Shown piece by piece: positions 3,058 to 43,393 of a DNA stretch of 43,783 nt. The stretch lies in the IMG/VR virus record IMGVR_UViG_3300009499_000016, positions 1 to 43,783 of that record; one strand, written 5' to 3'. The notes under the pieces were generated by a model, which was given only the letters and a program-made list of their open reading frames with translations, was not told where the DNA came from and did not search any database. Position 1 is the first letter of the stretch, and every line of letters starts with the position of its first letter. The translations under genes were made by a program, and so were the position numbers. The DNA comes from a virus.

Positions 3058-3104
3058 GCCCAAATTGGCATAGCTCTTATAAAAAGTAAAACTGAAATGA
3101 GTTC

Positions 3105-3139
3105 CGGTCCCAGCCAAGGAGGGCTTCGACCGAGCTTTT
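3105..3139 (+). terminator. Hairpin with AAGGAG loop and short U tract
   Basis: CGGTC (3105-3109) / GACCG (3128-3132) and, inside, AGCC (3112-3115) / GGCT (3122-3125) closing loop AAGGAG, then AGCTTTT. The 13-base core AGCCAAGGAGGGC recurs exactly at 3918-3930. Weak terminator or regulatory RNA element between the 2179 and 3159 genes. Confidence 0.45.
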
Positions 3140-3158
3140 AGAGAAAGGTTGAGAGATA

Positions 3159-3704: not shown

Positions 3705-3712
3705 AGAGAGAT

Positions 3713-3880
3713 ATGAGCGAACTCGAAAAGATAAAAGAAATAGCAGAGCAAATGCCTGATGGCCCTGAAAAGCAAAAGGCATTACAAGCATATTCTAATC
3801 TGAAAACGTTTGAAATAATAGCGGATTCTTTTGACAAATTGAGTACGGAAACGGAAGCGGCGGCACTGGCAAAAGAGTAA
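3713..3880 (+). CDS. Small acidic helical protein (55 aa)
   Basis: ATG 3713 comes 6 bases after the stop of the previous gene and uses its GGGGAG/AGAGAG stretch as ribosome site. Predicted all-helical, Glu/Lys-rich, no Cys. The 3' end forms the left arm of the long stem at 3856-3941, so coding and RNA structure overlap. Unknown function. Confidence 0.55.
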   Translation: MSELEKIKEIAEQMPDGPEKQKALQAYSNLKTFEIIADSFDKLSTETEAAALAKE

Positions 3881-3945
3881 AGGAAGCCTAAACTCTCGTC
3901 TGACTACTTTCGTAACGAGCCAAGGAGGGCGAGCCGCCGCTTTTT
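3856..3945 (+). terminator. Terminator-like element with long structured loop
   Basis: Outer 9-bp stem AGCGGCGGC (3856-3864) / GCCGCCGCT (3933-3941) followed by TTTTT. The loop holds CTCGT (3895-3899) / ACGAG (3915-3919) and the mini-hairpin GCC-AAGGAG-GGC (3919-3930), which share G3919 and so are partly exclusive. Same 13-base core as the 3105 element. Confidence 0.5.
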
Positions 3946-3959
3946 GAAAAGAATGAATT

Positions 3960-4283
3960 ATGGATATAAGAAACCCAGAGTATCGAGGTATGGTGCAATT
4001 GGCCTCAGACAGAAAGGATGAGATTCTTGTGCTCCAAGCTGAGAATAAGCAACTGAGAGAAGCAACTGGATTACTTAACAGTATGATTTTAAGCGGGGAA
4101 AAGCACTCTGAGAAATCAAAGGAAATAGTCAAGCAAGCCCTAATGGAATTTGGACAAAAAAGTAAAGAAGAAAAACTCAAAGAGACCGAGCTTGAGAAGG
4201 CCGCCAAAAGATGTGCCCGCACAGGCAATCACAAAGACCTTCAGAAATATTTAAGGCTTAGGAGAATATACAATGGAAGCTGA
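3960..4283 (+). CDS. Coiled-coil protein (107 aa)
   Basis: Not recognised. Residues about 15-75 are a continuous charged helix with heptad spacing (coiled coil); the end is basic (KYLRLRRIY). Overlaps the next gene by 11 bases. Start ATG 3960 has only a weak AAAAGAATG-type ribosome site. Confidence 0.6.
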   Translation: MDIRNPEYRGMVQLASDRKDEILVLQAENKQLREATGLLNSMILSGEKHSEKSKEIVKQALMEFGQKSKEEKLKETELEKAAKRCARTGNHKDLQKYLRLRRIYNGS

Positions 4284-8628: not shown

Positions 8629-8916
8629 ATGGCACGAGGAACAGAAGAACATTGCCAAAAACTTTATACTCATTGTCGGTGGTTTACAGATAATGATGGT
8701 GATGAAATCGGCGTATTATTCTGCAATTTTGGAATGATATATTTAGGTTTATATTCTGACGAAGGCGGCGGAATCTATGAAGGAGCGGAAGCCCAAATAG
8801 TTCACAAGAATAAGCTATATACTTTGATTTGTGATGATGACCTTACACAAAGAGGTTGGGTGAAAATCGCAAAAAAATGGGCAATGCAAATCTGGCTTCA
8901 CGAGAAAGATAAATAA
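8629..8916 (+). CDS. Hypothetical protein (95 aa)
   Basis: First gene after the structured terminator. Beta-rich, Gly/acidic (DEGGGIYEG), with four Cys. ATG 8629 follows GAAAGGATAAATTT. No family recognised. Confidence 0.55.
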   Translation: MARGTEEHCQKLYTHCRWFTDNDGDEIGVLFCNFGMIYLGLYSDEGGGIYEGAEAQIVHKNKLYTLICDDDLTQRGWVKIAKKWAMQIWLHEKDK

Positions 8917-8918
8917 GA

Positions 8919-9119
8919 ATGTGTGAATTTGTCAACGAAAAGCGATTGATATACGGCGATGGAGCGATGTTTATCCGGCGTTGTGCTAAATGTTATCGTT
9001 TTGTTAAAGCTCCGAAAACAATGAATTTTTCAAAATTCACGGAAAGATATATTGAGGAAGACAACGCTATGTGTAGTAAGTGCGGCCCAACGCATTTGAT
9101 ATTTGAAGGATTTTATTAG
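8919..9119 (+). CDS. Zinc-ribbon small protein (66 aa)
   Basis: CAKC (about 22-25) and CSKCG (about 52-56) spaced as a classical zinc ribbon. ATG 8919 lies 2 bases after the previous stop. Same operon and probably same expanded family of small zinc proteins. Confidence 0.55.
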   Translation: MCEFVNEKRLIYGDGAMFIRRCAKCYRFVKAPKTMNFSKFTERYIEEDNAMCSKCGPTHLIFEGFY

Positions 9120-9129
9120 CAGTGAATAT

Positions 9130-9164
9130 GCTGGCGGGTAAGGAAGAGTCCTCTGCCCGCCGGC
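9130..9164 (+). promoter_or_regulatory. Stable hairpin ahead of a ribosome site
   Basis: GCTGGCGGG (9130-9138) / CCCGCCGGC (9156-9164) with an inner AGGA/TCCT extension. No T run follows, so it is not a terminator; it may protect the downstream mRNA or mark a processing site before the 9187 gene. Confidence 0.5.
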
Positions 9165-9186
9165 AAAATTATAAAGGAGAAAAGTT

Positions 9187-9432
9187 ATGCACGAGCGCAA
9201 GTACAAAATCATGGATGGTCGATTAGTCAAACGAGACAACGAAGTTCCTATATCGGATGATGAGCCATTGTTTATTTTCAGGGCCAAGGACAGAAAGGCT
9301 TTAGCAGCTTTGGTTGCTTACAACATGATTTTAGACAATCTCGAACAGAAGGCGGAAGTCACTAAGTCAATCAACGACTTTCGGCGATTCCAAGAGCAAT
9401 ACCCGGAGAAAATGAGAGAGCCTACACCTTAA
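9187..9432 (+). CDS. Hypothetical protein (81 aa)
   Basis: ATG 9187 follows AAAGGAGAAAAG. N-terminal beta hairpin, then a helix with RAKDRKALAALVAYNMIL, then a charged end. The 'LFIFRAKD..AL..L..Y' pattern is common among early phage proteins of unknown role located before ninG/dcm genes. Confidence 0.6.
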   Translation: MHERKYKIMDGRLVKRDNEVPISDDEPLFIFRAKDRKALAALVAYNMILDNLEQKAEVTKSINDFRRFQEQYPEKMREPTP

Positions 9433-9454
9433 TAAAATCAATAATGGCTAAAGT

Positions 9455-9913
9455 ATGACACCCAAACAAAAAACCTGGCATATATGTTCAAGGTTCATAC
9501 GGTTAAGGGACGCCCTTGAATATTGTCGAAAATACGGAATTGGCTTACATCAGTTTTCAAGGCCAGAGAACATCATAGGTAAATGCTGCACCTGTAATAC
9601 GGTTAAAGCCTGGATTTATATGGATGCCGGCCATTGGATAAATCGGGGCTCCGGAGGAAATTCAGGGGTATATTTTGACGAGAGAAACATCAATCTTCAA
9701 TGCAAATCATGCAATGCAGGATTTTACAAAGGGAAAGTACAGCCTGATGTCAAGAGCGCCTATGACCAATTTATGTTAGATAAATACGGCCAGGAAGTAA
9801 TGGATGAACTCAGAATAAGGGACAAGGTAGTGACAAGGAAATACTCAGTAATAATATTGGCACTCCATCAGTTCTACAAAGGAATGTATCAAGGATTGTT
9901 AGATAGTATATGA
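9455..9913 (+). CDS. ninG: NinG/Rap-like recombination protein (152 aa)
   Basis: Lambda NinG (Rap) acts on branched recombination intermediates. The family features are present in order: CCTCNT zinc-binding pair (about 44-49), DAGHWINRG (57-65), FDERNINLQCKSCN (74-87) and a following Gly/Lys region with conserved Tyr. The Cys/His set suggests a treble-clef, HNH-like metal fold. Context with SSB and a RecB-like nuclease supports a recombination role. Confidence 0.8.
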   Translation: MTPKQKTWHICSRFIRLRDALEYCRKYGIGLHQFSRPENIIGKCCTCNTVKAWIYMDAGHWINRGSGGNSGVYFDERNINLQCKSCNAGFYKGKVQPDVKSAYDQFMLDKYGQEVMDELRIRDKVVTRKYSVIILALHQFYKGMYQGLLDSI

Positions 9914-9922
9914 GAGGCAAGG

Positions 9923-11053
9923 ATGCCAGATGTGGATAATCCCGAAGAATTTAGATGTATCAGCTTGTGTACGGGATACGGTGGACTTGAACTGGGAATC
10001 AGGCGAGTTATCCCTGCTCTTAGAACAGTCTGTTACGTGGAGGTCGAAGCCTTCGCTTGCGCGAACCTGGTCGCAAAGATTGAAGCGGGTGAACTGGATG
10101 CAGCTCCTATCTGGACGGATATTAAAACCTTCAATGGACGACCTTTTTATAAAAGGGTACACATCATTACTGCGGGCTATCCCTGCCAAGGAGAGAGCGT
10201 CGCTGGCAAAAGGCAGGGCAAGGCAGACCCTCGATGGCTTTGGCCGCATATTGAGAGAATCATTGAGACAGTTGAACCTCTTTGGTTCTTCGGAGAAAAC
10301 GTCAGTGGACACCTTACTCTTGGATTCCCCACAGTTTATAGAAGCCTACGGCTTATGGGTTACAAAGTTGAGGCAGGACTGTTTACAGCGGAGGAAGTTG
10401 GCGCGCCTCACAAGCGGGAAAGATTGTTTATCCTGGCCTACAATAGCAACGGGCAGGGTTACTCAGCAGATGTCGCCAAGCCAAGAGAAAAGACACAGCT
10501 TGAATCTTGCGATGACGGTAGAGAAAGTGAATTGGAGAACGCCAGCCGAACAGCCAGCAGCAATCAAGACGGACAAATTAGTGGGCGAGCTCGGCAAGAG
10601 GATGTATCACAAGGATACGGGAAGATTGGCTCAATACGGCTTGGAGCAGCAAGTGAATTGGCCAACCCCACAAACAATGGATTTTCTGGACAGCAAGAGG
10701 GAAGTATTCAAAAGGGGCAATTCAATAAGATTCAAAAGCAATCAGAATGTGGATGGTCAGGCCGCATTAAGGGATGCCGTTGGCCTTCTCGCCCCGGACA
10801 GCCCCAGTACGAATGGGAAGAACCGAGAACAGTTAAAACTTATCCCGGACCAAAACCAACGTACTGGGAAGATTATAAAAAGAAAATCGCGGAAGCAATT
10901 GAATCCCAGTTGGGTAGAATCCCTAATGGGCATACCGAAGTGGTGGACTCAATTGCCAATAGAGTGGATAGATTAAGATTACTTGGAAACGGGGTAGTAC
11001 CCCAGCAGGCAGAAAAGGCTTTTAGGGAATTGATAAAGTTATTCAGAATTTAA
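9923..11053 (+). CDS. dcm: C5 cytosine-specific DNA methyltransferase (376 aa)
   Basis: Transfers a methyl group from SAM to cytosine C5 in DNA. Motif I is SLCTGYGGLELG (14-25), motif IV GYPCQ with nucleophile C88, motif VI ENV (125-127), motif VIII GAPHKRERLF (160-169), and motif X LLGNGVVPQ near residue 355. The target-recognition region (about 175-330) is low in conservation and rich in Asn/Gln/Ser, and it is overprinted by another long frame (9930-10976). Likely protects the phage genome from host restriction. Confidence 0.92.
   Translation: MPDVDNPEEFRCISLCTGYGGLELGIRRVIPALRTVCYVEVEAFACANLVAKIEAGELDAAPIWTDIKTFNGRPFYKRVHIITAGYPCQGESVAGKRQGKADPRWLWPHIERIIETVEPLWFFGENVSGHLTLGFPTVYRSLRLMGYKVEAGLFTAEEVGAPHKRERLFILAYNSNGQGYSADVAKPREKTQLESCDDGRESELENASRTASSNQDGQISGRARQEDVSQGYGKIGSIRLGAASELANPTNNGFSGQQEGSIQKGQFNKIQKQSECGWSGRIKGCRWPSRPGQPQYEWEEPRTVKTYPGPKPTYWEDYKKKIAEAIESQLGRIPNGHTEVVDSIANRVDRLRLLGNGVVPQQAEKAFRELIKLFRI
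9930..10976 (+). CDS. Long overprinted ORF inside dcm (348 aa)
   Basis: Starts at ATG 9930, 7 bases after the dcm start and in the +1 frame, and runs 1,047 bases. It does not read like a random shadow. It holds repeated WPT/WRTP elements (SWPT, NWRTP, NWPTP), a block RHSLNLA, and the C-terminal LNPSWVESLMGIPKWW, which I recall from a phage protein family found beside cytosine methyltransferases. Chance openness because of dcm codon bias is the alternative. There is no separate ribosome site beyond that of dcm. Confidence 0.45.
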   Translation: MWIIPKNLDVSACVRDTVDLNWESGELSLLLEQSVTWRSKPSLARTWSQRLKRVNWMQLLSGRILKPSMDDLFIKGYTSLLRAIPAKERASLAKGRARQTLDGFGRILRESLRQLNLFGSSEKTSVDTLLLDSPQFIEAYGLWVTKLRQDCLQRRKLARLTSGKDCLSWPTIATGRVTQQMSPSQEKRHSLNLAMTVEKVNWRTPAEQPAAIKTDKLVGELGKRMYHKDTGRLAQYGLEQQVNWPTPQTMDFLDSKREVFKRGNSIRFKSNQNVDGQAALRDAVGLLAPDSPSTNGKNREQLKLIPDQNQRTGKIIKRKSRKQLNPSWVESLMGIPKWWTQLPIEWID

Positions 11054-11065
11054 GGAGCAAATAAA

Positions 11066-11311
11066 ATGACTTACGCATTCACAATAATAATAAAGCCGGA
11101 AATAGAAAAAGATGGCTATTTGTATTGTGGCAAGTGTGAAACGAAATTGATGGTCGTAATATCACAAGAAGTATGGGATGTGGACGACGAGGCATTCAAA
11201 AGTGGTGAAGAAAAGCCAGAGGAGTGCCTCGATGAAGTTTTTGTCGGCGAAGTCACAGGCCATTTCTGCCAAACGTGCAACCAATTAACGAGCCTTTCTT
11301 ATAATTATTAG
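11066..11311 (+). CDS. Zinc-ribbon protein (81 aa)
   Basis: CGKCE (about 20-24) and CQTCN (about 71-75) flank a beta-rich acidic middle, a clear two-knuckle zinc ribbon. ATG 11066 follows AAGGAGC. Unknown role. Confidence 0.6.
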   Translation: MTYAFTIIIKPEIEKDGYLYCGKCETKLMVVISQEVWDVDDEAFKSGEEKPEECLDEVFVGEVTGHFCQTCNQLTSLSYNY

Positions 11312-11337
11312 GCCTTTTTTATGAAAGGAATGTAAAG

Positions 11338-11829
11338 ATGAAACAAAAAGTTAAACGTGGACAAATGTATTATTTAGTTTTGCACAAAAGAGATTGGGCG
11401 TATACGCCTGCTGTCATCGTTCCTGTTAAGGTTATAAGTTGTAAACGACGTTCAGAATGGATAGTTGTTGAGCAGTATGTTAGTACCTATAAGCACAAAT
11501 TAACAGTGCATATTGACTGGCTCGCACCAACAATTGAGAGAGCTAAAAACCTTTTACAAAATATGAAGATGTGGGAGAAAAGGTGGACCGCAAATAACTG
11601 GAGGTATAGTATTAACCATAAAACAGCAAAATCAGAGATTACTAACGCCCTCAGTAAATTACCTAAATATCAGCAGCGCGACATAATGAAACAGTTTAAG
11701 AAAGTCTATCCCAACTTATTGAAATCTGATGGTTCATTCAAAGTTAGTAAAATGAAAATGACTCATTGGGACGAACTGGCGTGGGCAACCATAGCATTAA
11801 AATACCCACTAAAGAATGTTTGGGAGTGA
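11338..11829 (+). CDS. Hypothetical basic protein (163 aa)
   Basis: N-terminal 60 residues are beta-rich (MYYLVLHKRDW, AVIVPVKVI) and suit an SH3-like fold; the rest is basic and helical with many Lys/Trp. Not recognised. ATG 11338 follows GAAAGGAATGTAAAG. Last gene before a 250-bp gap. Confidence 0.55.
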   Translation: MKQKVKRGQMYYLVLHKRDWAYTPAVIVPVKVISCKRRSEWIVVEQYVSTYKHKLTVHIDWLAPTIERAKNLLQNMKMWEKRWTANNWRYSINHKTAKSEITNALSKLPKYQQRDIMKQFKKVYPNLLKSDGSFKVSKMKMTHWDELAWATIALKYPLKNVWE

Positions 11830-12852: not shown

Positions 12853-13116
12853 ATGGGTTATAGAAAAAGATACAAAAAACAGTTAGCTTTATGGGTTGAG
12901 GGTAAATCAGTACACATGCCAAATGGTATCTGCTGCCCGGACTTCTCTTGTTGTATGCCAGAGCTGTTAGCCCCTAAGGAAGAAAGAGAATTATTCCAAA
13001 AACTATATTTAGCCAAGAAGTATAGCGAATACGAAAGGATGCTAATGATGTTTTTGGGTCGGGGTTTACCGCTAATAACGGACAAAAAAGTGTATATTGC
13101 AGGTGGCAAGCCCTGA
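12853..13116 (+). CDS. Hypothetical protein with CCPDFSCC motif (87 aa)
   Basis: A short basic N-terminus, then a motif GICCPDFSCC (residues 26-35) and helical rest. This GxCCPDFSCC signature occurs in a family of small phage proteins of unknown function; four Cys could bind metal. ATG 12853 follows GAAAGGAAAATAGAG. Confidence 0.65.
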   Translation: MGYRKRYKKQLALWVEGKSVHMPNGICCPDFSCCMPELLAPKEERELFQKLYLAKKYSEYERMLMMFLGRGLPLITDKKVYIAGGKP

Positions 13117-13129
13117 AAGGATGAATAAT

Positions 13130-14131
13130 ATGGCAGATACAAAGATAGAGTGGGCTGATAAAGTCTGGAACCCTATTGCAGGATGTACGAAGTGTTCGCC
13201 CGGTTGTTTGAATTGCTATGCCGAGAGGATGGCACATCGACTTAAACATATATGTTTAGCGACAAACAATAATCCTCAATATTTGGGCAAAACAGATGAT
13301 GATGGTCATTGGACGGGCGAAGTTGAGTGTTGTGATTGGATACTTGACCAACCTCTGCACTGGCGCAAGCCCAAACGAATATTCGTATGCTCCATGAGCG
13401 ATTTGTTCCACAAGAAAGTGCCGTTTGGTTTTATAAATAAAGTTATCAATAGAATATATGATTGTCCACAACATACTTTTCTGATATTAACAAAACGCGC
13501 CAACAGAATGTTAGAATATTATAATCAGGTTCTCAAAGGTTATCTGCAACGTGAAAACATCCAATTCAATCTATCCATATCAACCCAGGCCGAGGCCGAT
13601 AAGAATATCCCCATACTATTACAGATCCCCGCAGCGATTCGAGGGTTGAGTATTGAGCCGATGCTGGGGCCGATAGATTTAATAGGCAAAGATAAATCAA
13701 GAATGGGGAAAACTGGATATTTACCAAACTATTTTACTCCATTTTTTTGCAATGATTGTGGAAGACATCTTTCACGACCACCAACTCAAGTTACTGAACT
13801 CTGTCGATATTGTGGAAGTATGAGCGCGAAAGAAAGAAAATCAATATCTTGGGTAGTAGTCGGTGGTGAATCCGGACCTGGAGCCAGGTATTGTAATATT
13901 GAGAATATCCGTTCAGTGGTTCGGCAATGCAAAGTAGCAGGCGTTCCAGTATTTGTCAAACAGATTCACTTGTGGAAGCTAAACGAAACAGATAGACTTT
14001 TTGAAACAAAAAACGATGCCCTATTCTATTCCTGCAGAATATTACATCCCGAAATAAAGTGGGTGTTAATTAAAGACATAAACCAATTTCCAGAAGATTT
14101 AAGAATACAGCAATTACCTGAAAGGAGGTGA
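13130..14131 (+). CDS. Phage Gp37/Gp68 family protein (DUF5131, 333 aa)
   Basis: Family hallmark at the N-terminus: KIEWADKVWNPIAGC, then CSPGCLNCYAE, a radical-SAM-like Cys cluster; then RIFVCSMSDLFH and a C-terminal WVVVGGESGPGAR. A zinc-ribbon-like insert (CNDCG...CRYCG) lies at about 205-236. Start ATG 13130 follows GAAAGGATGAATA; an in-frame ATG at 13097 has no ribosome site. The biochemical role of this family in phages is not established. Confidence 0.85.
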   Translation: MADTKIEWADKVWNPIAGCTKCSPGCLNCYAERMAHRLKHICLATNNNPQYLGKTDDDGHWTGEVECCDWILDQPLHWRKPKRIFVCSMSDLFHKKVPFGFINKVINRIYDCPQHTFLILTKRANRMLEYYNQVLKGYLQRENIQFNLSISTQAEADKNIPILLQIPAAIRGLSIEPMLGPIDLIGKDKSRMGKTGYLPNYFTPFFCNDCGRHLSRPPTQVTELCRYCGSMSAKERKSISWVVVGGESGPGARYCNIENIRSVVRQCKVAGVPVFVKQIHLWKLNETDRLFETKNDALFYSCRILHPEIKWVLIKDINQFPEDLRIQQLPERR

Positions 14132-15177: not shown

Positions 15178-15735
15178 ATGACAGAAGAACAGAAACATCC
15201 TGGAGGACGGCCAACTAAATATGAATATGATTATAACAGACAAGCGTTAATCCTTGCTGAAAAAGGATTTACAGATAAGGATATTGCAGAAGTTTTTGAA
15301 GTTACTGAGCAGACGATAAATAATTGGAAAAATCAGTTTCCTCAGTTTTTTGAGTCCTTAAAAAAGGGAAAGCAGATTGCTGATAAGAAAGTGACACAAT
15401 CTCTTTATTTTAGGGCTTTGGGGTATTCTCATCCCGAAGTACATATTAGTAATTACCAAGGTGATGTAACTAAAACAGATATTATAAAGCATTATCCACC
15501 AGACCCAGTATCTATGATATTCTGGCTCAAGAACCGTGATAAAAATAACTGGAGAGATGACAAGAATCTCAATATAGGCGGGCAAGAGGACAATCCTTTG
15601 AATATAAGCATAACAGTAAATAAGGTCGAGAAAGTTCCTGAGAGGCCACATGAGGACGTAGAAGCGAAAGAAAGGGAGCATGAGGCTTATATTGCAAGAT
15701 ATAGTAATAGTTCTCCTGAGGAGGAGACTGTGTAA
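15178..15735 (+). CDS. terS: Terminase small subunit (185 aa)
   Basis: Recognises phage DNA for packaging and stimulates TerL. Begins with HPGGRPTKY, frequent in TerS proteins, followed by a helix-turn-helix at about 35-60 (TDKDIAEVFEVTEQTINNWK). The middle has the typical ALGYSHPE and PPDPVSMIFWLKNRDKNNWR blocks; the tail is acidic. The stop overlaps the terL start (TAATG), giving coupled synthesis. Confidence 0.88.
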   Translation: MTEEQKHPGGRPTKYEYDYNRQALILAEKGFTDKDIAEVFEVTEQTINNWKNQFPQFFESLKKGKQIADKKVTQSLYFRALGYSHPEVHISNYQGDVTKTDIIKHYPPDPVSMIFWLKNRDKNNWRDDKNLNIGGQEDNPLNISITVNKVEKVPERPHEDVEAKEREHEAYIARYSNSSPEEETV

Positions 15736-16613
15736 TGCCATTAACAGGACAGGCTAAGACAGATTATCAACGAGAGTATATGCATAAACGTAGGTCTAAC
15801 ACAAATGAAAGCAGAAGAATGAGAAACTTTCACATAGACTTTAGCGTGAAGCAATCCAAGGCTTATGATTACTGGATGCAGAATGATATAGCCCTGGAGC
15901 TTCTCTATGGAGGGGCAAAATATGGCGGCAAGAGCTACGGTGGCTGTCTATTGGTATATCTGGAGGCCGTAAGACTTGCCAAGGAGCATGTTAAGAAAAG
16001 ACCTGCCTATCCGATACCTGTAGGCTTTATGGGCAGGAAGGTCGGTAAGGACTTTTACGATACCACCTTCGAGTCTTGGAAGAAGGCCATACCCGGCGAT
16101 TGTTACAGATTAAAAGGCCAGCCAGTTGAGATAATTATTGAGGAAAGGGTTAAGATATTGACGGGCGGCCTTGATAATAGGGAGACGGTCAATAAGTTCA
16201 ATAGTGCAGAATTGGCCTTTTATTTCTTAGATCAAGCCGAGGAGACTCTTAAAGATGATATAAGTCTATTGAGGACGGCTACCTTCTGGCGATTGTCTCT
16301 GGGTGGGGTCAAGATACCCGGTAAGGGGTTGCTGACGGCGAATCCAGCCCAGTGCTGGTTAAAGCAGGAGTTTATAGATACAACTGAAGTTCCTGAGCAT
16401 TTACCACAGACTGTGGGGATGCCTGATGTTCGTCATTTTGTTAATAATGGTATGTTGGAAAATCCTTATGGAGTGGAAGAATATAGAAAGTTGCTTAGAG
16501 AGCTTGCAGTAAGTATTCCTCGTCTGAAATATTTAGTTACAGGTAAGTGGGAAGATTACAAAAGAGCAACATCATTAAAGTTTTCCCTTACCCAAAAAAG
16601 CAGGAGTTTATAG
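15735..16613 (+). CDS. terL: Terminase large subunit, ATPase part (292 aa, frame broken)
   Basis: Packaging motor ATPase. Walker A is GGAKYGGKS (59-67); Walker B with catalytic acid is FYFLDQAEE (162-170); coupling motif region near LLTANP (199-204). After KQEFID (210-215) the sequence continues through NPY..EY..YLVTGKW (243-272), then hits TAG 16611-16613. The nuclease half follows in another frame from 16630. A 19-bp direct repeat brackets residues 210-292, so the tail may derive from a duplication. Functional only if the two halves associate or a +1 shift joins them. Confidence 0.85.
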   Translation: MPLTGQAKTDYQREYMHKRRSNTNESRRMRNFHIDFSVKQSKAYDYWMQNDIALELLYGGAKYGGKSYGGCLLVYLEAVRLAKEHVKKRPAYPIPVGFMGRKVGKDFYDTTFESWKKAIPGDCYRLKGQPVEIIIEERVKILTGGLDNRETVNKFNSAELAFYFLDQAEETLKDDISLLRTATFWRLSLGGVKIPGKGLLTANPAQCWLKQEFIDTTEVPEHLPQTVGMPDVRHFVNNGMLENPYGVEEYRKLLRELAVSIPRLKYLVTGKWEDYKRATSLKFSLTQKSRSL

Positions 16614-16629: not shown

Positions 16630-17469
16630 ATGGAAGATAAGACAATACATCGTAAATTTATTCAGGCTCTACCGAGCGATAACCCTTATTTATCACAGGA
16701 GTATATTGGGGTCTTGAAGGAGACTTTTGCCCACAGGCCGGAGCTATTAGAGGCTTATCTGTACGGTTCTTGGGATGCTTTAGAGGGTGCAGACCAGATA
16801 ATCAAGGCCCAATGGCTGCGGGAGGCCGCAGGTAAGACGATACAGGGCTTATCAAGGCATCCGAGGTTAGCTTGTGATACTGCAGGATTTGGTGATGATG
16901 AGACGGTTATAATGTATGCCGAGACCACAGACATCGAGGAACAGTGGATAATGCCTTATTGTGATTTTCCGGTCTTGGTGGACAAGCTGGCCCAGTTAAG
17001 TGTCCTCAAGCATAACTGCCCTATCGCTTTGGAGCAGACGGGTGGAGATATAGGATTTTGTGCTGCCCGTTCATTATCGGCCCAAGGTAAGAAGGTTATT
17101 ATATATACCCCACAGGGAAAGTCGGGCCGTCCGAATATGTTTTATAACTTGCGCTCGGAGATATGGAGCACAGGGGCCGAGAAATTATCCAGGGGCCATG
17201 TCCAGTTGAAGATGGAGGATTTGAGCCAGTCCGACCGTGACAAGGTTATAAGGCAGTTGACCACGCCCAAATACAAATATAGGAACGGCAAGACTTTAGT
17301 AGAGCCTAAGTCGGAGATAAAGAAAAGGCTGGGTAATAGTCCGGATAGAGGCGATTGTTACGTGATTTTACTGTGGAGTTACGACAAAGCTCCAGCTATA
17401 GATGATTTTCGAGTATATGAAGAGGACATGAGCGTGGCCGATAGCTATGCCACAGTGAGTGTGATATGA
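16630..17469 (+). CDS. terL: Terminase large subunit, nuclease part (279 aa)
   Basis: RNase H-like headful or site-cutting nuclease of the terminase. DNPY (17-20) and YLYGSWDA (43-50) are the usual linker motifs. The acidic triad is visible as RLACDTAG (D83), ALEQTGGD (E135) and a late DRGDCY. The frame is open back to 16579, so the ATG at 16630 is only one possible start; a weak AGGAG box lies about 25 bases upstream. C-terminus ATVSVI is repeated after the next small gene (17603). Confidence 0.85.
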   Translation: MEDKTIHRKFIQALPSDNPYLSQEYIGVLKETFAHRPELLEAYLYGSWDALEGADQIIKAQWLREAAGKTIQGLSRHPRLACDTAGFGDDETVIMYAETTDIEEQWIMPYCDFPVLVDKLAQLSVLKHNCPIALEQTGGDIGFCAARSLSAQGKKVIIYTPQGKSGRPNMFYNLRSEIWSTGAEKLSRGHVQLKMEDLSQSDRDKVIRQLTTPKYKYRNGKTLVEPKSEIKKRLGNSPDRGDCYVILLWSYDKAPAIDDFRVYEEDMSVADSYATVSVI

Positions 17470-22784: not shown

Positions 22785-22822
22785 TTAAAAACTAAATAAG
22801 TATTTACAGGTCAAGTTGGAAG

Positions 22823-22871
22823 ATACCCCTGTTAGTTCTCTCGTTGAGAATTGGCAGGGGTATTTTATTTG
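22823..22871 (+). terminator. Strong intrinsic terminator before the capsid genes
   Basis: ATACCCCTG (22823-22831) / CAGGGGTAT (22855-22863), continued inward by G-T and A-T pairs to TTCTC/GAGAA, nearly 18 bp in all, then TTTATTT. It lies after the tRNA-like gene and 60 bases before scaffold. No clear promoter follows, so read-through or a non-sigma70 promoter must serve the capsid genes. Confidence 0.85.
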
Positions 22872-23597: not shown

Positions 23598-24572
23598 ATG
23601 GGACAGCAAATGTATTTAGGGGCTGATGCCCAAGGTGGTTACTTAACGAACCCCCGTTTGTCGGAGACGTTGCGGCATGCATTAGTTCCCTTAATGAAGT
23701 TTAGACAGTTCGCGGATATTAAAGAGGGTTGGGGCAAAAAAGTCGGTGAAACATTATATTGGAATAAGGTCGCTGCTATAAGTACTGCAGGCGGAACCCT
23801 TGTCGAGACCAATGTAATGCCGGAGCATCAATTCTCTTTGTCGAGAGGCACTATTACCATGTCGGAATTTGGTAATAGTATTCCCTTTACAGGCAAGTTG
23901 CAGGCACTGAGTCAATTTGATGTAAGCGACCCGACTCAGGTAGTTCTCAGGGATGATATGGCCTCCATCTTGGATAAGGCGTGCGGACGGGAGTTCAAAC
24001 GCTCCCAGCGTAAGTATGTATGCCTTACGACAGCTTCGGGAACCTGGGAGAGCAGGGCTTTGGCGGCGGCGGCGACTTTTGCGACGTCTAATATCGCCAA
24101 GGTCAGTCCTTCAGTCTATCATATCCAGGAGATAGTTGACTGGTTCCGCACCAAGAATGTAAAGCCTTATGACGGCGAAGATTATGTCGGCATATTCTCA
24201 GTGAACTCCTTGAGGTCTATTTACGATGACGGTGCTTTTCAGGATGCTGCTAAATATGGCGACCCTGAAAGGTTGTTTGCCGGTGAGGTCGGACGTATCT
24301 ATAACTGTCGGTGCGTTCGAGAGACCAACTATCTCGTCAATACTCTCGGCAGCTCTACGGGAACTAACACCCTGGGCGAAGGAGTTATCTTCGGTGCTCA
24401 GACTGTAATGGAAGGAATAGCTGTTCCCGAAGAGTTGCGTCAGAAGATACCGACAGACTACGGTCGTTCCGAAGGTCTGGCCTGGTATGGAATCCTCGGC
24501 TTCAAGAGGATGTGGAAGGCCTCGGATTCCGGCCAGGATGAGCATATTGTTCACATCACTTCAACCAAGTAA
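23598..24572 (+). CDS. Major capsid protein, HK97 fold, N4-gp56-like (324 aa)
   Basis: Forms the icosahedral shell. Layout matches the N4-gp56/P22-like coat group: N-arm, GKKVGETLYWNKV region, TMSEFGNSIPFTGKL (E-loop to spine), a central helix with DKACGREFKRS, and GEVGRIYNCRCVRETN in the A-domain. No cleaved prohead sequence is evident. ATG 23598 follows TAGGAGTATAAAAA. The first 21 residues are mirrored by a 37-aa ORF at 21280. Confidence 0.85.
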   Translation: MGQQMYLGADAQGGYLTNPRLSETLRHALVPLMKFRQFADIKEGWGKKVGETLYWNKVAAISTAGGTLVETNVMPEHQFSLSRGTITMSEFGNSIPFTGKLQALSQFDVSDPTQVVLRDDMASILDKACGREFKRSQRKYVCLTTASGTWESRALAAAATFATSNIAKVSPSVYHIQEIVDWFRTKNVKPYDGEDYVGIFSVNSLRSIYDDGAFQDAAKYGDPERLFAGEVGRIYNCRCVRETNYLVNTLGSSTGTNTLGEGVIFGAQTVMEGIAVPEELRQKIPTDYGRSEGLAWYGILGFKRMWKASDSGQDEHIVHITSTK

Positions 24573-24584
24573 AGGAGGTTAATT

Positions 24585-25025
24585 ATGGCTTACGATGCAG
24601 AACGCTATCAGGCGAAAAAAATGATAACTAACCTCCGCGCGACTTTTGCCGGTGCCCTTAAAGGAACAACAGCAACGAATACCAATCAGCAGACTTCGGC
24701 TACGTTACTTGACCGTTTGGAGTTCTTTCAGACTATCAAGTTGACGGGATTCAAGGTCTTGCCGGAAGTAGCACCGGATGCCGGTGCCCACGCGACAAGT
24801 ATGACGACCCAGTTTGAGCTATGTCAGGGCACAGTAACCAAGGCGCGCGTAACGGCAGTTGGCACCGTTGCCGGTGTTATGGTGGACGGCACTATCGTTT
24901 CACCCAATATAGCCGCTGGGACGGGTTTTAACATCCGAGCTTCGATTACCGGATGGGATGGGACGGTTCAGACCTTTGCGCCGGGTGCCGTTAGATGTTA
25001 CATCGAATACCAGGAAAGATTTTAG
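24585..25025 (+). CDS. Capsid decoration / head stabilisation protein candidate (146 aa)
   Basis: Immediately follows the coat gene with a strong AAAGGAGG box, implying high expression. Thr/Ala/Gly-rich with beta strands (VTAVGTVAGVMVDGTIV, IEYQERF), typical of shell decoration proteins. No specific family named. Confidence 0.6.
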   Translation: MAYDAERYQAKKMITNLRATFAGALKGTTATNTNQQTSATLLDRLEFFQTIKLTGFKVLPEVAPDAGAHATSMTTQFELCQGTVTKARVTAVGTVAGVMVDGTIVSPNIAAGTGFNIRASITGWDGTVQTFAPGAVRCYIEYQERF

Positions 25026-25034
25026 GAGTTAGTT

Positions 25035-27344
25035 ATGTGGGCACCAGATATGCCAGTGGGTTACGAGTCGAGGAAATGCAGATATAGAATCTCAACTTTG
25101 TGCCGAGGCTTTGGTTTAGACCTAAGCGCAAACACAGAAAAAATCATAAAGAGCGCTATAGGAATAGGACAGATAGGCTCGGGTGCAGAGATAGAGTTAG
25201 ACTTATCAGCCAGTGATGCGTTGGGTATCTTTGGCGATAATGCCTTTGATTATGTATTCAGTGCGCATCAACTGGGGAATTTTCTTGCCACTAATGCCGT
25301 TTTAGAGGAATGGTGGCGGGTAATACGTCCAGGTGGTTATTTGATTCTATACGAGCAGGACAGAGACTTCTATCCCCACGTTGGCACATTTGGTGCCCCT
25401 CCATTTAGGAAGAAGGATTTAATATGGGAAGATGCCTGGGACATTCTAAGGAATTTCGGTAACGCCGAGAAGATAACAGCCACCAGGCATAACGAATCCA
25501 ACGAATATTCCTGGCAGCTTGTTATCAGAAAAGCATTTGCCTCTACGAAATGTCCCCAGGAATTGATGAGGCCCGACCCTCATATAGGGCAGGTATCTTT
25601 CCCCCGAAGCAAGAAAACGGACAAAGAGGCGTTGGTTATTCGATATGGTGCTTTGGGTGATACCGTATGGGTTACGCCGATACTCAAGCAGCTTAAAAAA
25701 GAAGGTTATTATGTTGTTATGAACTGTGCGGACTATAATGCACAGGTCTTAAAATCAAATCCCAACATTGATGAGTTTATAGTTCATCATTCCCCTACTG
25801 ACGTTCCTTATGTGGAATTGTCGAATTATTGGGAGCTTATCTCTGTGGGATTCGCAAAGGTCATCAATTTGACACAATCTATCGAAGGTGTCCTTGTTAA
25901 GTGTGAGGGTACTGAGGAATATGATTGGCCTCATGAAAAACGTCACGCCGAATGTAATGTGAACTATCTTGACAGGACGGTAGAGGTAGCTGGTTATTCT
26001 AAACTCAAGGGTAGTTTGCCGGAGTTGCATTTTACGGAAATCGAGGAACATTTAGCCCGCAACTTTATGAATCTTCACAAGGACAAATTCACCGTCATTT
26101 GGGTCTTGAGCGGTTCAGGTTTTAATAAGACATATCCCTGGGCCGAATATGTTGCGACCGAATTTTGTGTTACTCATAAAAAGGATGTTGAATTATATAC
26201 GGTTGGCGATGAGATGTGCCGGATACTCGAATGGCAAAATGCCTTGACCCAGAATAAAAGTGGTATCTGGACGGTCAGGCAAGCGTTCTTAATGACGAAA
26301 TACGCCGATCTTGTTATTGGCCCCGACACTGGCGTTCTTAATGCAGCTTCGTGTTTTGATACTCCGAAAATTGTCTTTTTGAGTACGGCGTCCGAGGAGA
26401 ACTTAACTAAATATTGGAAGAATGTCACGCCCTTGAGCGCTAAAGACTGCGAATGCCATCCGTGTCATAGATTGATATATTCCAATAGCTGCCCCAAAGG
26501 GACAATCGCTGGCAAGGCGGCGAAGTGTATGGAGAATCTAAAGCCTGAAACTATTCTGGAGGCTATGGAAAAGTATTATCAGGAATGGAAGACGCGACGA
26601 ATGATAGCCTTGAATACTAAGAAGGTCTGCGCCTTCACCATAGCCGATGATGAGATTACCCACAGGCTCGCTCGAAGAGTGAGGGCATCATTTAGCAAAT
26701 ATCATCCTGAAATACCTTTTTATATTTATGACAGCAAAGATGAGGAGAAGATTCTGGGCGAGATACGAGAATCAGCGGAAGCGTACAAGGCATTTGAGAT
26801 ACGTCCCCGATTATGTGAGATGCTGTTAAAGGATTTCGATTGCGTGATATATCTCGACGCCGATACGGTGGTCTGTGATAGATTAGACGAGTTCTTAGAA
26901 CAGGATTACGATATAGCAGGCTCTCTGAATATCGGGGAACAGGTATATCTCAATGCCGGTGTAACTGCCGTTACCAATTCCGATTTTTGCAAGGAATGGA
27001 CGGAACTGATGTATAAGCCGAATGGCGGCAAGTCCAATCAGGTTCATTTTAACAACCTTGCCTTTAGCAAGAGGTTCCGCTTGAAGATAGTTGATGAGCA
27101 CGATGTCTATTACAACGAGCGGTCGAGAGAGCATTGGAAGGATATAAGAGTTGATGGTGATGGTTTTGTCTGCAACGGCAGGAGGGTAAAAGTCCTGCAC
27201 TGGGCGGGTGGAAGAGGCAGAATGGAAGACAAGCTCTCATCGAAGGATTTCTCGCCCGAAGTCAGGATAGCTCTTGATGCTCTGACTTACACCAAGGACT
27301 TTACGACAATAGAAGGCATAGAGGTTAGTCAATGGAAACTTTAA
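25035..27344 (+). CDS. Three-domain methyltransferase - GT9-like - GT8-like glycosyltransferase (769 aa)
   Basis: Residues about 20-170 look like a class I SAM methyltransferase (DLSAS, FDYVFSAHQLGNF, WRVIRPGGYLILYE), though its glycine-rich motif I is eroded. Residues about 198-530 match heptosyltransferase-type GT9: VIRYGALGDTVWVTPIL at the N-lobe and ADLVIGPDTGVLNAAS at the C-lobe. Residues about 535-769 match a GT-A (GT8-like) transferase with DAD metal motif at 608-610 and LNAGV, then a late HWAGG. Located between decoration and fibre genes, so it may glycosylate virion proteins or host surface sugars. Confidence 0.8.
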   Translation: MWAPDMPVGYESRKCRYRISTLCRGFGLDLSANTEKIIKSAIGIGQIGSGAEIELDLSASDALGIFGDNAFDYVFSAHQLGNFLATNAVLEEWWRVIRPGGYLILYEQDRDFYPHVGTFGAPPFRKKDLIWEDAWDILRNFGNAEKITATRHNESNEYSWQLVIRKAFASTKCPQELMRPDPHIGQVSFPRSKKTDKEALVIRYGALGDTVWVTPILKQLKKEGYYVVMNCADYNAQVLKSNPNIDEFIVHHSPTDVPYVELSNYWELISVGFAKVINLTQSIEGVLVKCEGTEEYDWPHEKRHAECNVNYLDRTVEVAGYSKLKGSLPELHFTEIEEHLARNFMNLHKDKFTVIWVLSGSGFNKTYPWAEYVATEFCVTHKKDVELYTVGDEMCRILEWQNALTQNKSGIWTVRQAFLMTKYADLVIGPDTGVLNAASCFDTPKIVFLSTASEENLTKYWKNVTPLSAKDCECHPCHRLIYSNSCPKGTIAGKAAKCMENLKPETILEAMEKYYQEWKTRRMIALNTKKVCAFTIADDEITHRLARRVRASFSKYHPEIPFYIYDSKDEEKILGEIRESAEAYKAFEIRPRLCEMLLKDFDCVIYLDADTVVCDRLDEFLEQDYDIAGSLNIGEQVYLNAGVTAVTNSDFCKEWTELMYKPNGGKSNQVHFNNLAFSKRFRLKIVDEHDVYYNERSREHWKDIRVDGDGFVCNGRRVKVLHWAGGRGRMEDKLSSKDFSPEVRIALDALTYTKDFTTIEGIEVSQWKL

Positions 27345-27985
27345 TGGTCAAAACGGACCAGATGAAAATATCATCAAAACAGAAGTATCTTCGTGTATAT
27401 GCAGGTGAGACTTCTAATAAGGATATAGTTGGGGATGAGCACTTCTTGGAAATGATTGCCGCTGAATTTGGGAGGCGTGTCATCAGGGGCACGGCGTTAA
27501 GTTATGAATGTCCAGTTACTCATATAGTAAGTAGTGCAGAAAAACTATTGAGAAAAATATTTAATGATATGAATATAAAAACCGCTTTTGAGATAGGGAC
27601 ATTTCGCGGTGTCTCTACCGCTCTTCTGGCTCATTATGCGGATAAGGTTATAACGCTGGATGTTAAATACTTTGAAGAGGCGATGTATTTATGGGCTTAT
27701 GCCGGAGTAATGGAAAAAATCGAATATATTGTTACTATCGACGAGAACAAAAAAGAAGTGATTAACGGTATAGATTTCGATTTCGTTTTTATAGACGGTC
27801 ATCACGATTATGAATCTGTGAAAAAGGATTTTGAATTAACTAAAAAATGCGGAAGGGTATTGTTTCACGATTATCTTTCGACGTGTTCCGGTGTAATAAA
27901 GTTTGTAGATTCTTTGCCCAAAAACGAGATTGTAATTAAGCGGCCATTTGCCTATTGGGAAAGAAATGGAAATAGCCCAAGTTAA
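27332..27985 (+). CDS. Class I SAM methyltransferase, Methyltransf_24 type (217 aa)
   Basis: Motif I is AFEIGTFRGVST (about 86-97) and the downstream acidic signature is FVFIDGHHDYESVKKDF (about 151-167), typical of Methyltransf_24 enzymes in sugar or O-methylation clusters. The first 70 residues are extra. Start overlaps the glycosyltransferase by 13 bases and lacks a strong ribosome box, so translation is probably coupled. Confidence 0.8.
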   Translation: METLMVKTDQMKISSKQKYLRVYAGETSNKDIVGDEHFLEMIAAEFGRRVIRGTALSYECPVTHIVSSAEKLLRKIFNDMNIKTAFEIGTFRGVSTALLAHYADKVITLDVKYFEEAMYLWAYAGVMEKIEYIVTIDENKKEVINGIDFDFVFIDGHHDYESVKKDFELTKKCGRVLFHDYLSTCSGVIKFVDSLPKNEIVIKRPFAYWERNGNSPS

Positions 27986-28742
27986 ACAAGCTGGTTTTTT
28001 GTGGAATGTGCGAGTTCCCGTTCCTTGGCATGATATTAACATCATCACCGAAGTTATAGGTAACGATGAATACGGCATTTCCGAACTACGACAGGCCATA
28101 GGAAGCAATGTTAAGACCATACTTGATGTTGGTGGTCATATTGGCAGCTTTGGTGTTTTTGCTAAGTCTTTGTGGCCTGATGCAATTCTGGTCGCAGTGG
28201 AACCGGAACCTATGAACTGCAAGTTATATAAGATGAACTTGAAGGACAATGGATTGTGGGATGAAAAGTGTCATATTTTACAGGCTGCCATCGGTTATAA
28301 CCCAAAATGTAATTATCTCGTCCATAGCCCTTCTACGACAGGTGGTAACGTGGTGAGAACGAAGGAAGAAGCGGAGAAATATATCAACGAAGGTTATCGT
28401 TTCTACAATAGCATTGCTGTTGCCGATGTTGCATTATTGACTATTGAGGACATTCTTAGTGCATACGGAATAAAGCGTTTCGATTTAGCCAAATGGGATT
28501 GCGAGGGCGGAGAGATAGACGCCTTTAAGAACATCACGCCAGAAGCGGCGAGCAAGTTCCTTTTTATGATAGGGGAATATCATATCTGGAGCGAGAACAG
28601 TGATTATTTGAAAGCACCGCTTTTTGAATGTAGGCGATTCTGGCATCAGGCAAGAAAGAAATTTGAACATCTGAATTTTTCGTATAGCGGTGATTATAGT
28701 AGGCTCGGTCTGTTTCAGGCCTGGCCCAAGAAAGTAAGTTAA
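27966..28742 (+). CDS. FkbM-family methyltransferase (258 aa)
   Basis: SAM-dependent O-methyltransferase. Motif I ILDVGGHIGSFGVFAK, acidic motif VAVEPEPMN, and KWDCEGGE, the FkbM 'D-x-E-G-x-E' site. Start ATG 27966 follows GGGAAAG and overlaps the previous gene by 20 bases. Together with 25035 and 27332 it makes a compact sugar transfer/methylation set inside the structural operon. Confidence 0.82.
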   Translation: MEIAQVKQAGFLWNVRVPVPWHDINIITEVIGNDEYGISELRQAIGSNVKTILDVGGHIGSFGVFAKSLWPDAILVAVEPEPMNCKLYKMNLKDNGLWDEKCHILQAAIGYNPKCNYLVHSPSTTGGNVVRTKEEAEKYINEGYRFYNSIAVADVALLTIEDILSAYGIKRFDLAKWDCEGGEIDAFKNITPEAASKFLFMIGEYHIWSENSDYLKAPLFECRRFWHQARKKFEHLNFSYSGDYSRLGLFQAWPKKVS

Positions 28743-31281: not shown

Positions 31282-31490
31282 TGGCACAGATAACAGCATT
31301 ACAAGTGTATAGTTTACCTGGCATACTGCATAGCTTCACAGCTAAAGAAGAGCAGGTAGTGATAGTGCCCGCCCTCTGGAATAACGTTACCGAGAACAAT
31401 GCAGTTTCCTGGTCGAATGCGGCAGAGAATAACAGCGTTACCTGGGCGAACGCAAATGAAAATAACACGGTTTCTTGGAGTGCGGTTTAA
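31281..31490 (+). CDS. Small repeat protein with ENN-V-W units (69 aa)
   Basis: After a beta-rich first half, residues 33-69 are short tandem units of the form ENN-x-V-x-W-x-N-A (ENNAVSWSNA, ENNSVTWANA, ENNTVSWSA). Regular spacing suggests a beta-strand stack or trimeric fibre tip. Start and stop overlap neighbours (TAATG). Confidence 0.55.
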   Translation: MAQITALQVYSLPGILHSFTAKEEQVVIVPALWNNVTENNAVSWSNAAENNSVTWANANENNTVSWSAV

Positions 31491-32260
31491 TGGCTTTAGC
31501 AGATATTAGAGTGGATATACAGGCCAATTGGCCAAGTGGTTATTATAGCAGTGACCTCGATAGTGATAAGATTGATGAATATATCAATAATGTCCAGCAA
31601 TGGGTATGCCGAGGCTCACTATTTCTTCCCAATAAACATATCCTTCATAATTTTAGCTGGCTCAAAAGGGAGGTCACTGCCTCTACCGTTGACCAGCAGA
31701 GGCGGTATGCCCTACCGGACGGCACGGGTTCTATTTGGAAATTCAAAGTGGAGAAATCTTGTGAGCTTGTCAATTCAGATAGTTACAGAGTTCCCTTAAC
31801 TCGAATGCTCAAGCAGGACATAGAGAACGATAGCCGATTTAAGGATACAACGGACAAGGGCACGCCTTCGGTTTATTGCATAGATGACGGCGACTTATGG
31901 TTATACCCTTTGCCTGACCACAGTTCTAACAGTGGTTCGGCCTGGACGATAAATCTGGAGTATTACGGTTATTTGCCCGCTCTTTCCGATTCCAATACAA
32001 CCAATACGATTACAGACGATTATCCTAAAGTTCTGGAATATGACGCTACCGAGCAAGGGTATAGATTCGGCATGGACGAAGAGCAGGCGGAATATTGGAA
32101 GAATAAGAAAATCGAGATATTTCTTGAAATGCTCAAGGTTGATCAGGCATTGCAACTTTCAGGATTAGAAACAGGAATGACACCCATTGCCGGAGTAGCT
32201 TTAGGAGAAGGTCAGCCTTCGACATCGGGATATTATTATAACGACACACATTATGATTAA
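31490..32260 (+). CDS. Head-to-tail adaptor, T7 gp11/P22 gp4-like role (256 aa)
   Basis: N-terminal helices DKIDEYINNVQQWV, then a beta/loop middle with YALPDGTGSIWKF and SVYCIDDGDLWLYPLPD, then helices. This order (helix, DDG-x-LxLxPxP, helix) is typical of short-tailed phage adaptors. It precedes the nozzle gene by one fibre gene. Start ATG 31490 in TAATG. Confidence 0.65.
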   Translation: MALADIRVDIQANWPSGYYSSDLDSDKIDEYINNVQQWVCRGSLFLPNKHILHNFSWLKREVTASTVDQQRRYALPDGTGSIWKFKVEKSCELVNSDSYRVPLTRMLKQDIENDSRFKDTTDKGTPSVYCIDDGDLWLYPLPDHSSNSGSAWTINLEYYGYLPALSDSNTTNTITDDYPKVLEYDATEQGYRFGMDEEQAEYWKNKKIEIFLEMLKVDQALQLSGLETGMTPIAGVALGEGQPSTSGYYYNDTHYD

Positions 32261-42133: not shown

Positions 42134-43393
42134 ATGTCAAAAATAAGGCTCATCAGTAAAACCGGAGATGCACTGGCCCTCTTGGGCAGATTAGCCGATG
42201 AGGGCAACGGTGTGAGTTTCTGGGTCAAGGACAAGAAGGCCAAGGACAGTTATAAGGGTATGCTTCCGCAGGTAGATAGCTGGAACAGCAAGCTCTCTTC
42301 TAAAGATACTATCATTCTACTGGATATGGTGGGATTTGGTGCGATAGCGGACAACTTAAAAAAGAATGGATTCAAAGTCTATGGTGGTGGAAAGCTCAAT
42401 GATTCACTGGAGCTTAACCGTGAATTTGGAATGAAGATCGCCAGGAGTTCCGGTCTGAAAGTACCGAAGTGGGAACGATTCAACTCATTTGACAAGGCAA
42501 AGGATTTTGTGGCGGACAATGAAAAGTCTTTTGTTTTCAAACCTCAGAATAACCAGAGTCCGGCTTTTACCTACGTTTCCTCTGATGGAGAGGATATGGT
42601 TGAGATGCTGGCTTATTTTGGGAGTATCTGGTCGGGCAAAGTTGATTTTATTCTTCAGGAAAAAATAGAAGGCGTGGAGGTCTCGATAGAAAGATTTTAC
42701 TTGGATGGAGAACCTGTTCCGAACACATTAAACTCTACGTTGGAATGCAAAAAGTTTCTTGAGGGAGATAAGGGTGTCAATACGGGATGTATGGGTTCGG
42801 TAGTACGATTTTGGAAGAAACCAAATCCGAAACTATACAAGCTAACATTACAAAAAGCCGAACCGTTTTTGAAGCGATTCAAATATTCCGGCCCGCTCGA
42901 TTGCAATTGCATTATCTGCGAAAAAGACAAGATGCCGTATTTCTTAGAGTGGACTGCCAGGTTTGGATATAACGCCCTCAGCGCTCTCTGTGAGGGCTTA
43001 AATCAGGATGTGGGTAGTTTTATAGAGGGTATTCTCAATGGAGGCGTTTCAAAGCCTTCTTATGATTGGTTAGGGGCTGTGAGGGTAAGCATTCCACCAT
43101 ATCCATCGGAATTAGGCGCCGATAAAAGTGCTAATAAGCCCATTAGGGGCATTGATGATATGGAACATATCTGGTTGCTTGATGTTAAGTACCAAAATGG
43201 ACGTTTACTTTCGGCAGGCGTTGACGGTGTGGTGGCGGAGGTTACCGGCAAGAACACAACATTAAGTGGTTTAGCAACTGATATTTACGGCATTGTGGAG
43301 AAGATGAAAATTCCCGACAAGCAGTATCGGGCTGACATTATCAGCAATGCCGAGAAAAGAATAAATATCTTGAAGGAATGGAAGTATGTCTGA
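42134..43393 (+). CDS. PurD-like ATP-grasp ligase (419 aa)
   Basis: ATP-grasp enzymes join a carboxylate and an amine or thiol through an acyl-phosphate. This one follows the PurD (GAR synthetase) plan: NREFGMKIARSSGLKVPKWERF (about 95-116), VFKP (134-137), ILQEKIEGVEVSIERF (173-188), GDKGVNTGCMGSV (211-223) and the late YFLEWTARFGYNAL metal/phosphate region. The N-terminal Rossmann-like part lacks an obvious PurD signature, so the substrate may differ. No Shine-Dalgarno precedes ATG 42134, only an A-rich stretch. It overlaps the next gene by 8 bases. Confidence 0.8.
   Translation: MSKIRLISKTGDALALLGRLADEGNGVSFWVKDKKAKDSYKGMLPQVDSWNSKLSSKDTIILLDMVGFGAIADNLKKNGFKVYGGGKLNDSLELNREFGMKIARSSGLKVPKWERFNSFDKAKDFVADNEKSFVFKPQNNQSPAFTYVSSDGEDMVEMLAYFGSIWSGKVDFILQEKIEGVEVSIERFYLDGEPVPNTLNSTLECKKFLEGDKGVNTGCMGSVVRFWKKPNPKLYKLTLQKAEPFLKRFKYSGPLDCNCIICEKDKMPYFLEWTARFGYNALSALCEGLNQDVGSFIEGILNGGVSKPSYDWLGAVRVSIPPYPSELGADKSANKPIRGIDDMEHIWLLDVKYQNGRLLSAGVDGVVAEVTGKNTTLSGLATDIYGIVEKMKIPDKQYRADIISNAEKRINILKEWKYV

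Follow-up and report, generated by a model that had tools for sequence, protein, structure and literature searches.

The 43,783-nucleotide stretch of DNA from an uncultured bacterial virus analysed here (the window; IMG/VR record IMGVR_UViG_3300009499_000016, positions 1 to 43,783) carries behind its coat gene a block of glycosyltransferase (GT) and methyltransferase (MT) genes (25035–28742), which we favour as a late, cytosolic unit that glycosylates a virion protein and leaves methylation to enzymes acting in trans. The first gene of the block encodes a 769-residue fusion of an MT-fold domain with glycosyltransferase domains of families GT9 and GT8. Judged by its motifs, the MT part of this fusion has lost its S-adenosylmethionine (SAM) site, and if the glycan is methylated at all, the Methyltransf_24 and FkbM genes that follow, which are separate and intact, would be responsible. 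Since relatives of the fusion lie next to the coat gene in all contigs of sufficient length, they probably decorate the virus particle with sugars.

The linkage to the major capsid protein (MCP) gene was assessed in 82 loci with an MT-GT9 gene (L024–L105), which were picked by MT-domain motifs alone, the MCP being unused. An MCP homologue is present upstream on the same strand in 76 of them, at a distance of 405–6260 bp (median 1247), while the contigs of the other six reach less than 2.3 kb upstream and are too short, and hence the linkage is 76/76 where it is visible. Some loci are near-duplicates or re-fetches (L050 is the same as L100), so that the independent lineages are fewer than the locus count. 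Identities to the window fall to 30% for MT-GT9 and 32% for the MCP, and the association is therefore old. An MCP gene also lies upstream of MT-GT9 in all seven true loci found in cellular genomes, and the linkage as a whole speaks for a function in the particle or in late infection. The genes usually follow in the order portal, MCP, small beta protein, MT-GT9, adaptor and nozzle. In many phages no enzyme other than MT-GT9 was recognised in the head block, so that it needs no sugar operon.

In the window, the MCP gene (23598–24572, plus strand, as are all genes of the block) is of the N4-like kind (phrog_1357, E = 6e-13), and tblastn matches it to the MCPs of Escherichia phage PTXU04 and of Vibrio phages at 33–34% identity. 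It is followed after 12 nt by the gene of a small Thr-rich all-beta protein (24585–25025) and, after a further 9 nt, by the fusion gene (25035–27344), as the initial annotation had stated in placing the block behind coat and decoration genes. The annotation had also described the genes as all overlapping, which is true of the two inner junctions (13 nt between the fusion and Methyltransf_24, 20 nt between Methyltransf_24 and FkbM), while the outer junctions are spaced by 9–12 nt, including 12 nt between the end of FkbM and the next gene. The sole strong terminator-like hairpin in the area (22821–22866) is upstream of the block; a scan of the block interior gave no strong terminator and promoter-like matches at chance level only. 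By linkage and spacing, the genes thus lie inside a virion operon, where a virion-glycosylation cassette would be placed. The cassette slot is closed by an SU10-type head-tail adaptor (31475–32260, plus strand; phrog_2941, E = 7.6e-16), whose homologue in L007 matches Pfam SU10_adaptor (E = 4e-22).

The small beta protein belongs to a family found in 63 loci within the MCP-to-MT-GT9 block. In its AlphaFold2 model (pLDDT 80) it resembles a capsid cement protein, the best PDB fold being chain H of the cyanophage Pam1 capsid asymmetric unit, a weak match (TM ~0.53–0.55, E = 3e-4). With a Thr content of 15.1% in the window and a family median of 13.4%, compared with 8.9% for the MCP, it is Thr-richer than the other virion proteins measured and is a candidate acceptor.

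The frame of the fusion gene is open throughout, and the full-length protein recurs as one chain in five further contigs (L003, L005, L006, L007 and L025), so the fusion is no assembly accident. The single MT-GT9-GT8 chain that had been annotated was borne out by Pfam, profile and Foldseek searches, and the AlphaFold2 model has a mean pLDDT of 88.8 across the three domains. The middle domain (residues ~190–525, 25602–26609), a GT-B fold of heptosyltransferase type, falls below the Pfam GT9 cut-off in the window protein (E = 0.02); its GT9 identity is secured by a sequence-profile match to the solved structure 3tov (GT9, E = 1.1e-6), by Foldseek matches to 3tov (1.6e-12), WaaF 1psw (2.5e-10) and WaaC 6dfe (3.7e-8), and by Pfam GT9 matches in 12 of 52 relatives. 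The protein heptosyltransferase TibC is also among the Foldseek matches, ranked lower. The catalytic-type residues Asp209 (YGALGD) and Lys365 (NKTYPW) are invariant or near-invariant over the 52 members, GPDTG is found at 429–433, and ADP-heptose would be a candidate donor by family only. The C-terminal domain (residues ~529–769, 26619–27341) is a GT8 of the retaining GT-A kind (Pfam GT8 at residues 526–626, E = 2.3e-7, 31.1 bits against a cut-off of 24.3), with a DxD in LDADTV (607–612) and NAGV (640–643), motifs kept in 6/6 full-length fusions. Its sole solved relative by sequence is the Skp1 galactosyltransferase 6mw5 (E = 6.9e-5), and as that enzyme acts on the glycan of a cytosolic protein, the likeness is suggestive only.

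The N-terminal domain (residues 1–175, 25035–25559) matches Pfam Methyltransf_11 above the cut-off (residues 23–105, E = 2.4e-7) and has the fold of a class-I SAM methyltransferase, but not its motif I or acidic residue. In the window, GLDLSAN (27–33), IGIG (42–45) and QLGN (79–82) mark the former site, where motif I has changed from GCG to SAN and Gly has replaced the acidic Asp found at the beta2 end. A motif table was built for 80 proteins, comprising 72 others and eight of the GT8 lineage, namely the six full-length fusions and L004 and L099, which are both truncated before GT8. Motif I and the Asp are both lost in 8/8 GT8-lineage proteins (SAN, SAA, SAT, SCK, SAG, NVR or NAK in motif I; Gly or Cys for Asp), and the LE[DH]-type motif after the Asp has become LGN in all eight; the truncated L002 shows the same pattern (GLDLSAH...IGIG) in a 14-protein alignment. 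Outside the lineage, the Asp is retained in 72/72 proteins, and motif I reads GLD[LIV]GCG or differs by one residue (GCA, GCV, GCS, GAG, ACG etc.). In a maximum-likelihood tree, the eight GT8-lineage proteins form one clade with 100% support, which is nested in a clade of 22 that includes 14 MT-intact proteins, and the MT loss is therefore derived and, on present data, happened once. The domain is still under purifying selection, with dN/dS of 0.096 between the window and L002 (148 codons) and 0.065 between L005 and L004, and its protein identity between relatives is about equal to that of GT9 and GT8. It still evolves under constraint and is a candidate pseudoenzyme, not a remnant in decay.

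O-methylation by the fusion itself is thus not supported, as these residues are lost in every member of the GT8 lineage, while the catalytic Asp and Lys of GT9, the DxD of GT8 and both stand-alone methyltransferases are intact. The Methyltransf_24 gene (27332–27985, 217 aa, with an alternative ATG at 27344) encodes an O-methyltransferase-like protein (Pfam E = 1.1e-10, 42.7 bits against a cut-off of 26.3) with an intact motif I (FEIGTFRG). The FkbM-family gene (27966–28742, 258 aa; Pfam Methyltransf_21, E = 3.3e-9, 37.5 bits against 22.7) likewise has an intact motif I (ILDVGGHIGSF) and retains WDCEGGE; its start was set at ATG 27966 instead of TTG 27948 because homologues begin there. Both genes follow the fusion in the order first annotated. 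Homologues were found in GT8-lineage loci only (L003, L005 and L025 for Methyltransf_24; L005, L006 and L007 for FkbM), stand-alone methyltransferases lying directly behind the fusion in 6/6 such loci with sequence there, while orthologues are absent elsewhere. The gain of GT8, the loss of the MT site in cis and the two stand-alone methyltransferases coincide on one derived branch.

An exact-peptide scan of IMG/VR with the window fusion protein alone gave no matches, while the window MCP as query returned 22 loci, of which four (L003, L005, L006 and L007) carry the full fusion. The 14-protein alignment was then used for an MT-domain motif search of IMG/VR and 84,980 cellular genomes, by which MT-GT9 was found in at least 144 IMG/VR contigs (80 of them kept) and in eight cellular matches, of which seven are true loci and one (L106) is spurious. 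L025 proved to be a fifth full fusion, and nearly all other relatives are MT-GT9 proteins without GT8. No match to the GT8 domain, FkbM, the whole fusion or the L100 MT-GT9 was found among cultured phages (50,697 phage records searched), no DNA match to the block was found in the plasmids searched, and a literature search found no paper on an MT-GT9-GT8 fusion. The phage specificity that the initial annotation had wished to see checked by phylogeny looks correct within these searches, and is limited to them, because the scan needs two specific peptides and could miss bacterial MT-GT9 proteins that are without them. The nearest cellular match, L099 (68%), comes from a 6.6-kb contig in the bin of a Desulfobacterales metagenome-assembled genome, which is weak evidence for a Desulfobacterales host. 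L050 and L100 represent one prophage of Paraburkholderia sp. C35 (contig NZ_QBUY01000010.1), in which the 57.5-kb viral record corresponds to ~20.2–77.8 kb of the contig, with an integrase at the left end (20.3–20.8 kb) and MT-GT9 at ~58.2 kb.

For the ancestral MT-GT9, we propose that GT9 would transfer a sugar to a virion protein encoded next to it, for which the MCP and the Thr-rich cement-like protein are the most plausible choices, and that the MT would directly cap the glycan by O-methylation. In the window lineage, the MT site would have been destroyed, GT8 fused C-terminally, and two intact methyltransferases acquired directly downstream, so that GT9 might add the first or inner sugar, GT8 might elongate it, and Methyltransf_24 and FkbM might methylate it in trans; donor sugars, order of action, acceptor and methylated positions are what we infer in this scheme. 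We advance more tentatively, and at somewhat less than even odds, the wider proposal that MT-GT9 is a near-fixed, dedicated capsid-glycosylation enzyme in the head module of an uncultured phage lineage, in one sublineage of which the glycan was rewired from capped to extended by a non-catalytic MT, GT8 and methyltransferases in trans.

Several observations weigh against glycosylation of a virion protein by this block. GT8 gain, MT loss and MT gain all trace to one branch, so that their association is a single unreplicated event; Fisher values were given no weight, as they disregard shared descent. Some phages with a related MCP are without MT-GT9 (L016–L018, PTXU04, Bas95 and Vibrio 1.232.O), and MT-GT9 is thus dispensable for building such a head. 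GT9 and GT8 enzymes are also typical of the lipopolysaccharide (LPS) core. In L032, the head block contains genes of aminosugar type (8772–11359), encoding a B12-binding radical SAM protein and a DegT aminotransferase, which points to phage-encoded synthesis of an unusual sugar. Moreover, the MCP-adaptor slot of L021 holds a gene (2598–4196) for a TPR-ending, polytopic membrane protein that resembles a Wzy_C O-antigen ligase and has nine hydrophobic membrane-type segments. This gene fits host-envelope glycans better and keeps that reading open. The virion-gene placement from which the initial annotation had argued for a virion glycan has itself proved far stronger than could be known from the sequence alone (76/76 and 7/7).

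The most serious alternative, though an unlikely one, is that the enzymes act late in infection on the LPS core or O-antigen of the host envelope, for example against re-adsorption to debris or superinfection, the head operon providing timing only. GT9 is the LPS heptosyltransferase family, WaaF and WaaC are among the fold matches, and GT8, GT2, GT4 and GT17 occur in the cassettes, in addition to the ligase-like protein of L021. However, the tie to the MCP holds in 76/76 loci across deep divergence, while known LPS-converting genes usually lack a tie to a capsid gene, and most MT-GT9 members are lone cytosolic enzymes with no flippase or ligase nearby. An active methyltransferase with unusual SAM binding in the GT8 lineage appears improbable: its retained fold, the low dN/dS values and the conservation of the replacement residues themselves (LGN in 8/8) would agree with activity, but the Gly-rich loop and the acidic Asp are lost in every member, and separate methyltransferases appeared beside the fusion.

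DNA hypermodification with glycosylated and methylated bases is the least credible reading by far. Phage glycosyltransferases often act on DNA, and the window encodes a C5 DNA methylase (9923–11053); this gene is, however, 14 kb away among early genes, the cassette is without a recognised base-hydroxymethylating or DNA-binding gene, and the closest folds are those of heptosyltransferases for LPS or protein. Slightly less probable than a still-active MT domain is that the targets are not in the capsid shell but are virion proteins of the tail spike, fibre or lectin-like kind. Encoded nearby are a laminin-G/concanavalin-type structural protein (29408) and a beta-helical spike (35291), and the fold matches include TibC, a protein heptosyltransferase that modifies a beta-helical autotransporter (PMC4358343). 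Nevertheless, MT-GT9 is linked to MCP and cement-like genes, whereas tail genes vary between relatives, TibC was not found by sequence, and the four-Cys motif is also present in WaaF-type GT9s and is uninformative on the acceptor.

TibC has been reported to glycosylate protein and to carry the Cys of its iron finger at 339/342/358/370 (PMC4358343). The window fusion has a family-wide conserved set of four Cys (C474xxC477x8C486x11C498), and shares with TibC/AAH the GT-B heptosyltransferase fold and late C-lobe Cys with C-x2-C and C-x11-C spacings, but is without their N-terminal beta-barrel. TibC was absent from the GT9-profile matches up to E = 10, and membership of the TibC/AAH (BAHT) family is thus unsupported by sequence; the Cys set as a sign of a protein acceptor was ruled out, as chromosomal WaaF-type GT9s carry a similar one. 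WaaF and WaaC share the GT9 fold and the catalytic Asp/Lys positions, whereas the window GT9 is fused to MT and GT8, phage-borne and MCP-linked.

A functional parallel exists in chlorovirus PBCV-1, in which the GT-GT-MT chain A064R builds the MCP glycan and the stand-alone methyltransferase A061L completes its methylation (PMC9614988). Work on a capsid glycan can therefore be divided in this way, and in both cases a viral chain of two GT domains and one MT domain is accompanied by stand-alone MT. PBCV-1 differs in being a eukaryotic giant virus with an active MT in last position, whereas that of the window is first and degenerate, and its GT families (GT34-like and a new family, against GT9 and GT8 here) show that the chains are not homologous. 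Among phages, mycobacteriophage cluster O (Corndog) has O-methyltransferase and GT genes among its head genes (PMC4351075), and these were reported to modify capsid and tail tube, according to Freeman 2023 as cited in PMC11600133. Unlike in the window, the genes of cluster O are separate and lie between portal and protease, the hosts are Actinobacteria, and no GT9/GT8 fusion is present.

Phage virion glycosylation has so far come from few cases, mainly mycobacterial; a capsid-linked MT-GT9 in more than 100 uncultured phages would, if virion-acting, make it a broad trait. As one copy lies in a prophage of Paraburkholderia sp. C35, a named host with a sequenced genome, the question is testable. 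The window lineage provides a natural experiment, in which a catalytic site was lost in the fusion while the same branch gained a second GT and methyltransferases in trans.

The MCP-adaptor slot carries varied glycan genes in the relatives, including GT2 (L011–L014 and L021), GT17 (L029), GT4 (L037) and, below the Pfam cut-off, Methyltransf_24 (L013), and can thus be regarded as a slot for glycan genes in which MT-GT9 is the one that stays constant. Two by-eye readings in this slot, a GT11-like protein in L005 (6804–7502) and a sulfotransferase-like protein in L007 (5733–6473), found no support in Pfam or PDB. A second GT9 or MT-like open reading frame (ORF) just upstream of MT-GT9 in L044, L045, L047, L062 and L097 suggests domain duplication. 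The MCP homologue is in two ORFs with a gap in L057, L075, L089 and L097, possibly by an intron or insertion, and in L057 the halves are separated by a 285-aa ORF. Head-block ORFs of L009 (8937–9863), L012 (4906–5637), L015 (8992–9816), L021 (1723–2493) and L006 (6557–7177 and 7280–8863) start with hydrophobic N-termini that resemble signal peptides, which is unusual for virion proteins.

Elsewhere in the window, the early region encodes, besides the C5 DNA methylase, a DUF5131 protein (13097–14131, E = 4e-70). The large terminase matches extend over two consecutive ORFs (15735–16613 and 16630–17469; phrog_979 and phrog_2), which may represent one interrupted or frameshifted gene, and a PurD-like phosphoribosylglycinamide synthetase ATP-grasp gene (42134–43393; GARS_A, E = 4e-13) lies at the end of the phage record.

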